Shown in pieces: positions 43,657-48,881 of a stretch of 64,000 bases of DNA. Position 1 is the first letter of the stretch. Each line of letters begins with the position of its first letter. Under the pieces are notes generated by a model, which was given only the letters and a program-made list of their open reading frames with translations, did not search any database and was not told where the DNA came from. The translations under genes were made by a program, and so were the position numbers. This DNA comes from Erysipelotrichaceae bacterium (GTDB taxonomy: Bacteria > Bacillota_I > Bacilli_A > Erysipelotrichales > Erysipelotrichaceae), in NCBI GenBank assembly GCA_013334325.1, contig JAAXXT010000008.1, positions 1 through 64,000 on the forward strand, written 5' to 3'.

Positions 43657-44283
43657 ATGCGGATGCGTAATAAACCTTGGGCCAATGATTTTTTAAATCA
43701 ACATCCCAAAGCGACCACCAACCCTATCGATCTTAAAGGATCTTGGAAAGCTTCCTATTCAAAAGTTATATTAGAAATAGGCAGTGGTAAAGGAGGCTAT
43801 CTTTTTGATTTAGCGACCCTTCACCAAAATCAACGTTATATTGCCTTAGAAAAGGACCGTAATGTCTCTGCGACAGCTTTACGTCATCATGATGTCTTAG
43901 GTCTAGAGAATCTTTTATGGATCAATAATGGGGCTGAAAGTATCCAAACTTGGTTTGAAAAAGGGGAACTCGATGAGATCCATCTAAACTTTAGTGATCC
44001 ATGGCCAAAAAAACACCATGAGAAAAGAAGATTGACCTCTAAGACCTTTATGCCTATTTTTATAGATTTATTAAGACCTGAAGGTTTAATCAAGTTTAAA
44101 ACAGACAATCAAAAATTGTTTGAATATACCATCCTTCAAATGCAGGTTTATCCCTTAGAGATGACTTTTTTTAGTGTGAATTATATTCATAGTTTAGAAG
44201 AAGAGGATGCCTATACTGAATATGAAATGAAATTCAACGCCTTAAATCAACCGATCTATCGCGCTGTATGGAGAAAAAAATGA
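43657..44283 (+). CDS. trmB: tRNA (guanine-N7)-methyltransferase
   Basis: Makes m7G46 in tRNA. 208 residues: the start MRMRNKPWANDFL is the family's conserved N-terminus, EIGSGKGGYLFDLA is the SAM motif, and LNFSDPWPKKHHEKRRLTSKTFM holds the catalytic Asp and substrate loop. ATGA overlap with the peptidase gene. Confidence 0.96.
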   Translation: MRMRNKPWANDFLNQHPKATTNPIDLKGSWKASYSKVILEIGSGKGGYLFDLATLHQNQRYIALEKDRNVSATALRHHDVLGLENLLWINNGAESIQTWFEKGELDEIHLNFSDPWPKKHHEKRRLTSKTFMPIFIDLLRPEGLIKFKTDNQKLFEYTILQMQVYPLEMTFFSVNYIHSLEEEDAYTEYEMKFNALNQPIYRAVWRKK

Positions 44284-45368
44284 CCTTAAGTAAAGAAACA
44301 TTAGTGTTGATGGAAAAGCTTACTCAAGCCTTTGGGATACCTGGAGATGAGAAAGAAGTAAGTCAAATCTTAAGAGAATCCTATAAGACTTTAGCAGATG
44401 AAATTATCTATGATAATCTAGGTTCTATTTTCGCTGTGAAAAAGAGTAAGAATCCTAAGGCTAAGACCTTAATGATCGCAGGACATATGGATGAGGTAGG
44501 ATTCATCGTCAATAAGATCAATGAAAAAGGATGTTTGAGTATAACGCCTGTGGGAGGTTGGTGGAATCAGACCTTACTAGGACAAAGAGTCTTGGTTAAA
44601 ACTAAGACAGGTCAGAAAATAAAAGGAACCATAGGATCTATTCCTCCACATCTATTGAGCGATAAAGATCGTGCAGCACCCATGGATATAAAAAATATGC
44701 TTGTTGATGTAGGTCAAACTACCAAAGCAGAAACAGAAGCTTTAGGCATCGTAATGGGATCTCCTGTGATATTAGAAGGAAGTTTTGAGATCTTAGAAGG
44801 AAATCAACGTTTATTGGCTAAAGCTTGGGATAATCGATATGGATGTTTAATGGGCATAGAACTATTAAGTGCATTAAAAGACCATGAACTCGATGTGAAC
44901 TTGGTTGTAGGTGCGACAGTTCAAGAAGAAGTAGGAATTAGAGGCGCACAAACAGCAACTTCATTGATCAAACCAGATGCGGCCATCGTTTTTGATTGTT
45001 CACCAGCGAATGACGCTTCAGGCGATAAAGAAGCCTTTGGACAATTAGGAAAAGGACCTTTGGTGCGTTTTATCGATGCGAACTATTTGCCTCATCGAGG
45101 TTTCCTCTATCACTATATCGACCTTTTAGAAGCCAATGAGATTCCCTTTCAGTATTACCAATCCTTAGGTGGAACAGATGCTGGGGCGATCCATAAATCA
45201 CTAGATGGAGTTATGACTTTGACCATGTGTATCTGTGCAAGAAATATTCATACTAATTCATCCATTATCGATGTTTCAGATTATGAAAACGCGAGAAAAG
45301 CAGCACTTTGTTTAGTAGAGACACTGACATCAAAGACCATCGAAGATCTTAAAAAAGTGATACAATAA
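44280..45368 (+). CDS. M42-family aminopeptidase
   Basis: Cobalt- or zinc-dependent aminopeptidase of the glutamyl/deblocking type, 362 residues. All ligands are visible: AGHMDEVGF (His, catalytic Asp), WDNRYG (bridging Asp), TVQEEVGIRGAQTA (catalytic Glu pair), FDCSPA (Asp), GGTDAGAIH and ARNIHTN (His). I start at ATG 44280, which overlaps the trmB stop as ATGA; ATG 44268 would add four residues. With pepV it completes peptide breakdown. Confidence 0.93.
   Translation: MTLSKETLVLMEKLTQAFGIPGDEKEVSQILRESYKTLADEIIYDNLGSIFAVKKSKNPKAKTLMIAGHMDEVGFIVNKINEKGCLSITPVGGWWNQTLLGQRVLVKTKTGQKIKGTIGSIPPHLLSDKDRAAPMDIKNMLVDVGQTTKAETEALGIVMGSPVILEGSFEILEGNQRLLAKAWDNRYGCLMGIELLSALKDHELDVNLVVGATVQEEVGIRGAQTATSLIKPDAAIVFDCSPANDASGDKEAFGQLGKGPLVRFIDANYLPHRGFLYHYIDLLEANEIPFQYYQSLGGTDAGAIHKSLDGVMTLTMCICARNIHTNSSIIDVSDYENARKAALCLVETLTSKTIEDLKKVIQ
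45358..45366 (+). promoter_or_regulatory. Extended -10 promoter of lipoprotein gene (predicted leaderless)
   Basis: TGA-TACAAT at the end of the M42 gene, 7 nt, then ATG 45374. No Shine-Dalgarno in the gap; -35 poor. Confidence 0.45.
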
Positions 45369-45373
45369 GTTAT

Positions 45374-46063
45374 ATGAAAAAGATGCTTATTTTATTTCTA
45401 CTGATGATGTTTGGATTGAGTGCTTGTTCTGAAATAACACTTGATTCACTTCAATCTTACCTAAAGGCAAGTGCAAGTGATGCTGAATCAGAAAAGATCA
45501 GCCCTTTAAACAACATTTCTAAGGAACTTTTTAGTTATTATTTACCTCAACATGTAGGTCGTAAGGTTTCAAGTGAAACATCGACCATTTTAACAAGTAA
45601 TAATGTCAATATTTTAATGAACTTGGATGTTATCGATGTGATCAGTGATACATATTATGATACAGCTCGTTCTTTTAGATCGATGCTTGCAGCTTCTCAA
45701 AATCTTGATAGTTTTGATTCCACCTTTTTAAATCGAAAAGGAGAAACCATAACCTATCGAGTCAGCGTGCTTGAAGTAAGTGATTCTTTGATTTTGCTTA
45801 CCCTTGAGGGTGGTTACTTTATGTTTACAGCCATTACACCTATAGGATTAAGTACCGAGATCCTATACGATATGTTAACGATTGCTAAAAGTTGTGAGGT
45901 CGATGGTCCTGCAGTATTGTTGGCTTATTCTACACGAGAATCAATAGATTATAAGAAAGAAACCTTGGATATGTTTAGTCAAATAGCCCCTGAATCAGGA
46001 ACGGTTTTAGATATGATCTCTGGTGGTCAACCGATTGAATTGCCTAGTGACAATACGAATTAA
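45374..46063 (+). CDS. Lipoprotein of unknown function
   Basis: 229 residues. Clear lipoprotein signal MKKMLILFLLMMFGLSAC, then a soluble extracytoplasmic domain with mixed alpha/beta character; residues ~40-60 read SPLNNISKELFSYYLPQHVGRKVSSETS, and the acidic tail ends ELPSDNTN. I recognise no family. It lies between the M42 peptidase and the motif protein upstream of murC, so it may belong to envelope functions. The start has no ribosome-binding site. Confidence 0.8.
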   Translation: MKKMLILFLLMMFGLSACSEITLDSLQSYLKASASDAESEKISPLNNISKELFSYYLPQHVGRKVSSETSTILTSNNVNILMNLDVIDVISDTYYDTARSFRSMLAASQNLDSFDSTFLNRKGETITYRVSVLEVSDSLILLTLEGGYFMFTAITPIGLSTEILYDMLTIAKSCEVDGPAVLLAYSTRESIDYKKETLDMFSQIAPESGTVLDMISGGQPIELPSDNTN

Positions 46064-46083
46064 TAACACTAAGGGAGAAACGT

Positions 46084-46797
46084 ATGTTTAAGAAACTTGC
46101 CTCATTACTTTTTGAAGATGAAGATATCACGCCAGAAAAGGAAGATGAAAAAGTAGATCTACTTAAGGTTAAGAAACAAGCTGAGTCTTCACCATTGAAA
46201 GCTCAAATGGATCCTCAACCTTTACATCAAGAAGCTCTAGAAAGAACCAAGAAAAGTAGTTTTGAGAATATCGTCGCTGATGAACATCCAGCGAGTTTTG
46301 AAGATGAAGCCCACCCTTTAGAAAATAATGACATTAGTGAACCAAGAAGATCATCAGATCTAGCTTTTGTGGATCGTAAACCTGTTCAATCAAAAGATGT
46401 TTATGAATTCAAACCAGTGATCAGTCCAATGTTTGGAGTCGCAGAAAGTGAAAAAGAACATGTTAGACCTACTTTCGTTCAAACGGCAGAAGTTAAAAAC
46501 GACAGTCATCTACAGACTGTGATAAGCCCTTATTATGGCGCGATTCATAAAGATATGAAGACAGGGCCAGAGTATCAAAATAACCCCGTATCAATGGAAC
46601 CAACCCAGCTTAAATCCAAGGCTAAAGTTGCTCAATACGTAGAAGAAACAAAACCTATTGAAATCAAAAATATCTCCCTTGAAGAACTGATTTCACCTAA
46701 TCCAATCCCACAGACACAAAATACCCCTAATACTGAAACAGTTTTAGAAGAAAATATAGAGGATGTTACACAATTCTCCTTGTTTGGGGAAGAATAG
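46084..46797 (+). CDS. Unrecognised disordered protein with repeated VISPxxG motif, upstream of murC
   Basis: 237 residues, mostly charged and low in hydrophobic residues, so largely disordered. It starts with an amphipathic stretch MFKKLASLLFEDED, similar in kind to the membrane-binding start of SepF, then acidic linker. Two copies of a short motif, FKPVISPMFGV (109-119) and LQTVISPYYGA (143-153), and a weaker EELISPNP (200-207), stand in otherwise polar sequence. It ends DVTQFSLFGEE. Good RBS GGGAG; its stop abuts the murC start, so it is co-translated with murC. I do not recognise a family; a membrane-associated wall or division adaptor is a guess. Confidence 0.8.
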   Translation: MFKKLASLLFEDEDITPEKEDEKVDLLKVKKQAESSPLKAQMDPQPLHQEALERTKKSSFENIVADEHPASFEDEAHPLENNDISEPRRSSDLAFVDRKPVQSKDVYEFKPVISPMFGVAESEKEHVRPTFVQTAEVKNDSHLQTVISPYYGAIHKDMKTGPEYQNNPVSMEPTQLKSKAKVAQYVEETKPIEIKNISLEELISPNPIPQTQNTPNTETVLEENIEDVTQFSLFGEE

Positions 46798-48102
46798 ATG
46801 TTGTTTTTTGTTGGTATAAAAGGAGCTGGGATGGCTGCTTTGGCGTGTATGATGAAGGAAATGGGGGAGTCTGTAGAAGGCTCTGATCTAGAAAAACACT
46901 TTTTCACAGAAGTTCAACTTCATGAATTAAATATTCCTATACATCCTTTTGGTGTTTATCCTAAAGATGGTTCTACCATCATCATAGGCAATGCCTTTAA
47001 AGAAGATTTTGAAGATGTAAGAGTAATCAGACAGAATCCTAGTTATACGATCTATCGATATCACGAATTCTTAGGTCAATTAACGAAAAAGTACATTACG
47101 GTCGCTTTAAGCGGTTCTCATGGGAAAACAACGACGACCACGATGATGGCTTCTATATTACGTCAATATAAAGAAACAGCCTATTTGATAGGGGATGGCC
47201 ACGGTCATCTTTCAAAAGACTCCGTTTATCTAGCGATAGAAGCCGATGAATATCGACGGTTTTTTCATTCGTATTTTCCTAAGTACGCAGTTGTCACTAA
47301 TGTTGATCTAGATCATGTTGATTACTATAAAGATGAGGCTGATTATCGAAAGGCTTATGAAGATTTTGCTGATAATGTGAGTGATACCTTGATTTTATTT
47401 GGGGATGATCCTCAAGTAAGAGAACTCAAACTCTCTAAGAAGCATCTTTTTTACGGGATCGATCCTAAAAATGATGTCTATGCGGAAATTCTCGATGAAG
47501 ATACCCATCATACTCGTTTTAATTTACATTACTTAGGAAAAAATCTAGGAGAAGTAAGCTTACCTTTCTCAGGACGTCACTTGGTTTGGAATGCTTTGGG
47601 AACCATAACTGTAGCACTGTTAGAAAACATACCGCTTCAATTGATTCAAAAGGGACTTATTGAGTTCAAAGGGGCATCACGAAGATTTGTGGTCGAGACC
47701 CATGGTAATAATGTGTATATCGATGATTATGCGCACCATCCAACCGAAATCAGTGTAACTATTGATGCGGCTCGTTTAAGATATCCCAATAAACCTTTGA
47801 TCGCAATTTTTAAACCACACAGAGTATCTCGTTTATTCCATTTCGCGGATGAATTCGCAATAGCACTTAACAAAGCTGATCACGTTTATCTGATTGATTT
47901 TAATGCGATCGATGATAAGGAAGCCGGGATCGATATCGACATCACTTATCTACAAAAACGTTGTAAAAACGCGACTATTATCACTGAAGATGATGCGGGA
48001 GCACTTATTTTAGCTTCACATGCTCCAGCCTGTTACTTGTTTATGAGCTCAAAAGATATTTATATTCTGTCAGATGCCTTAAAGCGCTATCAGAATTCTT
48101 GA
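46798..48102 (+). CDS. murC: UDP-N-acetylmuramate-L-alanine ligase
   Basis: Adds L-Ala to UDP-MurNAc in peptidoglycan synthesis. 434 residues: FVGIKGAGMAALACMMKEMG (UDP-binding), ALSGSHGKTTTTTM (ATP loop), EADEYRRFFHSYFPKYAVVTNVDLDHVDYY, and C-terminal YIDDYAHHPTEISVT and IFKPHRVSRL. All are MurC hallmarks. The preceding gene ends on the base before the ATG. murC followed by ytxG/ytxH-type genes and ccpA matches B. subtilis order. Confidence 0.95.
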   Translation: MLFFVGIKGAGMAALACMMKEMGESVEGSDLEKHFFTEVQLHELNIPIHPFGVYPKDGSTIIIGNAFKEDFEDVRVIRQNPSYTIYRYHEFLGQLTKKYITVALSGSHGKTTTTTMMASILRQYKETAYLIGDGHGHLSKDSVYLAIEADEYRRFFHSYFPKYAVVTNVDLDHVDYYKDEADYRKAYEDFADNVSDTLILFGDDPQVRELKLSKKHLFYGIDPKNDVYAEILDEDTHHTRFNLHYLGKNLGEVSLPFSGRHLVWNALGTITVALLENIPLQLIQKGLIEFKGASRRFVVETHGNNVYIDDYAHHPTEISVTIDAARLRYPNKPLIAIFKPHRVSRLFHFADEFAIALNKADHVYLIDFNAIDDKEAGIDIDITYLQKRCKNATIITEDDAGALILASHAPACYLFMSSKDIYILSDALKRYQNS

Positions 48103-48144: not shown

Positions 48145-48507
48145 ATGGACGCACTATTAGAGTCATTATCATCTGTTTCGCTGCAATTATTACCTATTTT
48201 TGGGCTTGCAGTACTTATTTTTCTTTTGATACTTTTTAAAAGAGTTTTTGATTTACTAAAAAAGGTAGATAAAACGATAGATCAAGTTGATCTCACTTTA
48301 AAAAAGATTGATGGGCCATTAGAAACCATAGTTTCTGTATCTAAAACCATCGATTTCGTCAACAGTGCTGCAGAAAACGCAGTGAAAACTTTAGCGATTA
48401 CTTTGGCGAAAAATTTTTCTGTGATTACCAATTGGATTAAATCTTCACTGGGTAAGAAAAAAGACAATGATCTCGAAGAAACAACCGAGGAAGAACTCGG
48501 ACTATAG
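48145..48507 (+). CDS. DUF948-like membrane protein (YtxG-like)
   Basis: 120 residues: one membrane helix (~15-33), then a coiled-coil-like stretch with KKVDKTIDQVDLTLKKIDGPLETI heptads, and an acidic tail. This matches DUF948/YtxG, as does the position between murC and a YtxH-like gene. Function unknown; general-stress association in B. subtilis only. Confidence 0.78.
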   Translation: MDALLESLSSVSLQLLPIFGLAVLIFLLILFKRVFDLLKKVDKTIDQVDLTLKKIDGPLETIVSVSKTIDFVNSAAENAVKTLAITLAKNFSVITNWIKSSLGKKKDNDLEETTEEELGL

Positions 48508-48515
48508 GAGCTAAA

Positions 48516-48881
48516 ATGGACAATACTTTTAAAGAAGAATTAGACAGACTGATCGAGAAAGCGAATAAGTTCGCAGATGACATTCATTTGAAAGAAAATC
48601 TTGAGTCTTTTAGAGATGATCTTGTTGATTTAGCGACCAAAACAGGTAAGAAGATCGATGAATTGGCTCATGATGAAGAACTTAAAGCTAAGATTAAAGA
48701 TGGTGCCACTCAAGTCAAAGATGGAGCCATTAAAGGGGCTAAGTATGTAGGGGATAAAACGACAGAGTTTTTCGAAAGACCTGACGTTCAAGAAAACATC
48801 GAAAAAGCTAAAGATAAAACGATAGAGGTCGCAGAGAAAGGCGTAGAAGCCCTTAAGAAAGCCCTCAAGAAAGAGGAGTAG
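48516..48881 (+). CDS. Amphipathic-repeat protein (YtxH position)
   Basis: 121 residues, no membrane helix, made of amphipathic helical repeats rich in Lys, Asp, Glu and Ala (KDGATQVKDGAIKGAKYVGDKTTEFFERPDVQENIEKAKDKTIEVAEKGVEALKK), like LEA or apolipoprotein-type sequences. It occupies the place of ytxH, but lacks the N-terminal membrane segment of that family. RBS AGGAG. Possibly binds membranes or stabilises proteins; not certain. Confidence 0.75.
   Translation: MDNTFKEELDRLIEKANKFADDIHLKENLESFRDDLVDLATKTGKKIDELAHDEELKAKIKDGATQVKDGAIKGAKYVGDKTTEFFERPDVQENIEKAKDKTIEVAEKGVEALKKALKKEE

Follow-up and report, generated by a model that had tools for sequence, protein, structure and literature searches.

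The 237-residue protein encoded directly upstream of murC in the window, a stretch of 64,000 nucleotides from an Erysipelotrichaceae bacterium (contig JAAXXT010000008.1), is probably a motor-less counterpart of the SftA N-terminal region, and would then act as a membrane-held, bivalent adaptor of the Z-ring through two VISPxxG motifs, with SepF as the likeliest ligand. SftA (YtpS) is the soluble, septum-associated, FtsK-like DNA translocase of the Bacillales, and the two proteins have in common an amphipathic start followed by acidic residues, a polar N-terminal region, a motif of the type [VIP]SP[VIM][FY]G, and a chromosomal slot next to murC. Since it has no motor, the 237-residue protein falls outside the SftA translocase family: genuine SftA proteins match PF01580, PF17854 and PF09397, whereas Pfam finds neither an FtsK alpha domain nor the FtsK/SpoIIIE motor and gamma domains in our protein, which has instead a second ISPxxG copy and conserved C-terminal SLDDLL and xSLFD elements of its own. 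A first-pass annotation of this DNA knew of no described family of this kind, but the chain has a described counterpart, the SftA N-terminus minus the motor. It is a real and conserved protein, and apparently an undescribed form in which a known module stands alone. The features on which the argument draws are the following, all on the forward strand.

44268-45368, + strand: M42 peptidase gene (PF05343), part of a conserved block found around sftA in Anoxybacillus and Listeria
46071-46077, + strand: Shine-Dalgarno-like AAGGGAG, read in the sequence, a good ribosome-binding site just 5' of the start codon
46084-46797, + strand: stand-alone gene resembling the SftA N-terminus, an ATG-initiated frame of 237 residues with TAG at 46795-46797
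46084-46116, + strand: N-terminal helix MFKKLASLLFE, amphipathic (basic/hydrophobic) and presumably anchoring the protein to the membrane, with acidic residues after it
46405-46440, + strand: putative docking motif 1, EFKPVISPMFGV, core VISPMFG at 46417-46437; SftA N-termini match it
46513-46542, + strand: putative docking motif 2, QTVISPYYGA, core VISPYYG at 46519-46539
46672-46692, + strand: ISLEELI, a short conserved SLDDLL-type helix (from alignment and predicted model)
46771-46794, + strand: C-terminal QFSLFGEE with conserved [SN]LF[DGE], resembling the sliding-clamp-binding pentapeptide
46798-48102, + strand: murC (TIGR01082, E 2.7e-92; Mur ligase Pfam domains)
48145-48881, + strand: ytxG-like and YtxH-like genes of the same block, assigned by position and layout

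The gene is present once in the 1.95-Mb host genome, and the protein matched no Pfam or NCBIfam family, in agreement with the earlier proposal of a real protein lacking a database family. Its TAG abuts the murC ATG at 46798 with a gap of 0 nt, as had been claimed, which is one value in a range that extends from -4 to about +31 nt among relatives. The order of genes in the window is trmB, M42 peptidase, a lipoprotein, the 237-residue frame, murC, the ytxG-like and ytxH-like genes, a LacI-type regulator in the position of ccpA, and tyrS. The ytxG-like gene, in the DUF948 position, has no Pfam match to DUF948, and the match of its neighbour to YtxH (E 0.0015) lies below the cut-off. The lipoprotein gene just 5' of our frame (window positions 45374-46063) is small and belongs to no family; a lipoprotein is found in a similar place in genomes of another family, f12 (loci L154, L155 and L158). 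In one incomplete genome (G038, L019:1477-3402), an ISPxxG protein and MurC occupy a single frame of 641 residues, which is either a true fusion or an assembly error.

To describe conservation we label the families of the genome set f1, f2 and so on, f1 being that of the window and f2 a family of the same order. Genome searches returned homologues in most of the genus and family of the window, and nearly all examined Erysipelotrichaceae loci have one copy of the gene, adjoining murC. At named Erysipelotrichaceae loci located via MurC, the frame 5' of murC mostly carries two ISPxxG motifs and otherwise one, with variable linkers and lengths. Among 34 aligned sequences, I, S, P and G are invariant in motif 1 (ISP at residue 113, within KPVISPMFGV) and S, P and G in motif 2 (ISP at residue 147), and at least two copies of [VIL][ILVS]SPxxG occur in all 34, while 68,000 shuffled control proteins never contained two copies and contained one in 0.17% of cases. 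The mean fraction of the commonest residue is 0.76 in motif 1, 0.71 in motif 2 and 0.63 at the N-terminus, compared with 0.19-0.32 in the linkers; the two motif copies reported earlier are thus both present, and the suggested check that motifs should be conserved while linkers vary comes out in their favour. A degenerate DNA pattern of the motif matches two sites in the 1.95-Mb genome, both inside this frame, and its reversed control matches none there. The supposed third copy, ELISPNP, was rejected: it is not conserved as a motif in the alignment of 34 and is the end of the SLDDLL-type helix.

Outside these motifs, the chain is predicted to be disordered apart from a helix at residues 2-9 and a short one at 199-203, the only helices in an AlphaFold2 model built on the alignment of 34 (mean pLDDT 55, pTM 0.16), which bears out the long disordered polar chain described earlier. 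The N-terminal consensus is MxKKLxxLLFEEEE, and the helix has a hydrophobic moment of 0.53 (permutation p 0.056). The SepF-like layout of this start had also been recognised correctly: SepF, the membrane anchor of the Z-ring, likewise begins with an amphipathic helix followed by an acidic linker, and the N-terminal profile of our family matches the N-termini of genuine SepF proteins in two genomes (G146:C27:13026-13244 and G090:C24:16629-16883), so that both have a similar membrane-anchor layout. The 237-residue protein differs from SepF in having no match to the SepF domain (PF04472), and the host encodes a separate, genuine SepF (G000:C51). At the opposite end lies a (Q)xSLF(D/G) motif that the first-pass annotation did not mention, whose core [SNTD]LF[DGES] occurs in 28 of 32 relatives and in 2.3% of shuffled tails.

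A profile of the window-family proteins, run through approximately 400 genomes of the class, revealed three further settings. In f2 the protein lies beside acpS and contains two motifs together with a conserved RRKEKFSxPLIYDEE segment; in f12 it lies immediately 5' of ytxG-ytxH and has one motif; and in f15 the motif lies some 40 residues into an FtsK-type translocase that is 700 residues long and has no transmembrane segments. The three families f1, f2 and f12 share their upstream neighbours, trmB and a gene for a lipoprotein or thioredoxin, and so appear to have one locus in common whose downstream genes differ. The profile scores of f1 against f2 (89.1) and f12 (63.9) both exceed their own shuffled controls. 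A protein of 356 residues in f5 (L166:1525-2595, - strand) also carries the motif, as GEVISPLYGKK.

The f15 translocase was used for a class-wide search in which the N-termini of 61 soluble and 38 membrane-anchored FtsK-type translocases were read. With a wider motif pattern that was set after examples had been seen, the motif falls within the first 150 residues in 54 of the 61 soluble proteins and in none of the 38 membrane-anchored ones; shuffled N-termini carry it in 0.26% of cases. The soluble carriers include SftA of the Bacillales, for which we took sequences from a plasmid collection in which some records are chromosomal: the motif regions read RPTEVPSPVYGYK in Anoxybacillus, TATDVPSPVYAFN in Listeria and AREIPSPTHGF in Rossellomorea, and all three proteins have the amphipathic start and an FRFP segment. 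SftA of S. aureus, which adjoins murC, has the variant VPSAIFGT, with SAIFG replacing SPxxG. The gene order in Anoxybacillus and Listeria is M42 peptidase, thioredoxin, DUF1444, ytpR, SftA, murC, DUF948 and YtxH, interrupted by a few single genes, and the 237-residue frame occupies the position of sftA (M42 peptidase - X - murC - ytxG - ytxH). Like the N-terminal region of SftA, the protein has no transmembrane segments and contains SPxxG, and its gene lies 3' of the M42 peptidase and 5' of murC-ytxG-ytxH. Profile-profile comparison of the window family with SftA N-termini aligned 22 columns over the motif with a score of 32.4 (E 6e-5), the maximum among 60 column-shuffled controls being 15.4. 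The f12 stand-alone proteins scored 39.0 against all SftA, above their own shuffled controls, and 38.4 against Bacillales SftA on the SP motif (control 20.6), and those of f2 scored 36.9 against f9 SftA (control 19.7), here through RRKEKFSxPLI and not the SP motif.

Only one translocase in the host genome exceeds the family cut-off, a 696-residue protein that has four transmembrane segments and lacks the motif. Because this sole translocase is membrane-anchored and motif-less, the SftA motor is absent, and an SftA-like front end has been kept in its place; we infer that the motor was lost rather than gained. The protein probably does what the septum-targeting part of SftA does. Its amphipathic helix would hold it on the membrane, while the disordered chain would offer the two VISPxxG peptides to a Z-ring component, most likely SepF and otherwise FtsZ or ZapA. 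Two motifs would make it bivalent, an adaptor that sits at the division site and contributes to division, and the dimers or polymers of SepF would suit a bivalent ligand; the xSLFD C-terminus could provide a further contact. In the soluble translocases, the same peptide probably carries the DNA pump to the septum. In the host, the pump is a separate membrane-anchored SpoIIIE/FtsK, and the adaptor would occupy the sftA position 5' of murC as a separate gene, one that was kept or has arisen. El Najjar et al. reportedly traced the recruitment of SftA to an N-terminal stretch of 47 residues and considered that the first 20 residues may bind the membrane.

As for the ligand, we searched for SepF in two genome sets and found it encoded in all 64 motif-bearing genomes tested, whether the motif is stand-alone or in a translocase. 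In the 15 genomes without SepF (f8, f16, three of f19 and one of f5), neither the translocases nor the profile search yielded a motif, with one f8 translocase frame left unread and f16 having no translocase match. The co-occurrence is one-way, as f3, f7, f10, f18 and some others have SepF and no detected motif. FtsA was present in 27 of 46 genomes tested, motif-bearing lineages including f11 and f15 being without it, and FtsZ in 45 of 46. Because of this co-occurrence, the partial absence of FtsA and the near-universal presence of FtsZ, the distribution favours SepF as the ligand, although the lineages are few and FtsZ could also serve. The FtsZ ring recruits SftA, which itself has no transmembrane segments (PMC5357621). 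A 2025 publication (PMC11790237, citing Saaki et al. 2022) describes SftA as membrane-attached and as binding the Z-ring with support from SepF and FtsA; it adds that overproduction of SftA without EzrA blocks division, possibly through interference with SepF, and that its deletion in B. subtilis gives longer cells. The same adaptor could instead dock on FtsZ itself or on ZapA, which we regard as a possible but somewhat unlikely alternative. The near-universal FtsZ and patchy FtsA are compatible with it, as is ZapJ (Spd_1350) of Streptococcus pneumoniae, an accessory midcell division protein that is encoded 5' of murC and binds ZapA (PMC8687745). Yet lineages with FtsZ and without SepF (f8, f16 and some of f19) have no motif, and PMC11790237 ties SftA recruitment to SepF. 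The resemblance of our protein to ZapJ is suggestive at the level of published descriptions: both are small and encoded 5' of murC, whereas ZapJ is reported from streptococci only, has a pI of 9.1 and binds ZapA (PMC8687745). No Streptococcus murC locus was found among the plasmid and phage collections searched.

One could also argue that an unrelated disordered division protein acquired the docking peptide of SftA without descending from its N-terminus. For disordered chains with so little sequence in common, a convergent docking peptide is conceivable; only short motifs are shared, and the direct comparison of f1 with Bacillales SftA gave a weak score of 23.4 (control 13.9; E 0.0085, probability 5%), through the N-terminal helix. 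We nevertheless consider convergence unlikely, given the same slot between M42/trx and murC/ytxG, the same order of elements, the second, independent motif that ties f2 stand-alone proteins to f9 SftA, and the finding that lineages mostly have either the stand-alone or the translocase-borne form. The first-pass annotation took the adjacency to murC as a sign of wall synthesis or division, and a partner or regulator of MurC in wall-precursor synthesis would fit both the zero-gap coupling in the window and the 641-residue frame in G038. This reading now seems highly improbable: the coupled gene is acpS in f2 and ytxG in f12, so that the coupling to murC is inherited synteny, the whole murC block is an old Bacilli synteny, and the motif occurs in DNA translocases too. 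MurC partnership deduced from adjacency is thereby weakened and wall synthesis is left unsupported, while an involvement in division remains probable. The C-terminus raises yet another reading, in which QxSLF would bind the sliding clamp DnaN and tether the replisome to division. The clamp-binding pentapeptide is QL[SD]LF, which the tail resembles, and Q..LF is found in 18 of 32 tails compared with 0.8% of shuffled ones, the core quoted above being likewise far above its shuffles. However, Q is out of place in 14 of the 32, although clamp motifs usually conserve this residue above all others, and the f2 homologues have different C-terminal ends, which makes such a tether very unlikely on the sequence evidence.

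If the protein is indeed a motor-less front end of SftA, it bears on the route by which SftA reaches the Z-ring, which is only partly known so far: a motif of seven residues that recurs in Bacillales, Listeria and many Bacilli-related families, and persists where the motor is gone, names a probable contact. The SftA front end then apparently does something at the septum besides carrying the DNA pump, in keeping with the division phenotypes of B. subtilis SftA described in PMC11790237. As a long shot, one could speculate that the N-terminus of SftA represents an ancient divisome module in its own right, one that uses ISPxxG to dock on SepF and is borne by the pump or separate from it, and that the Erysipelotrichaceae adaptor also sits on the replication clamp via QxSLF, linking replication and division; if so, ISPxxG would be a previously unrecognised Z-ring docking peptide.

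Among public plasmid and phage records, some resemble bacterial chromosome, including a 2.9-Mb Listeria 'plasmid' and a 163-kb 'Staphylococcus phage' with murC and SftA (L205, L279). In a further record, filed as phage and assigned to Enterococcus faecalis (L282:3863-4816), a polar, motor-less protein of 317 residues with the SftA-like segment FRFPAYDDE lies 5' of murC and is possibly another motor-less SftA front end.
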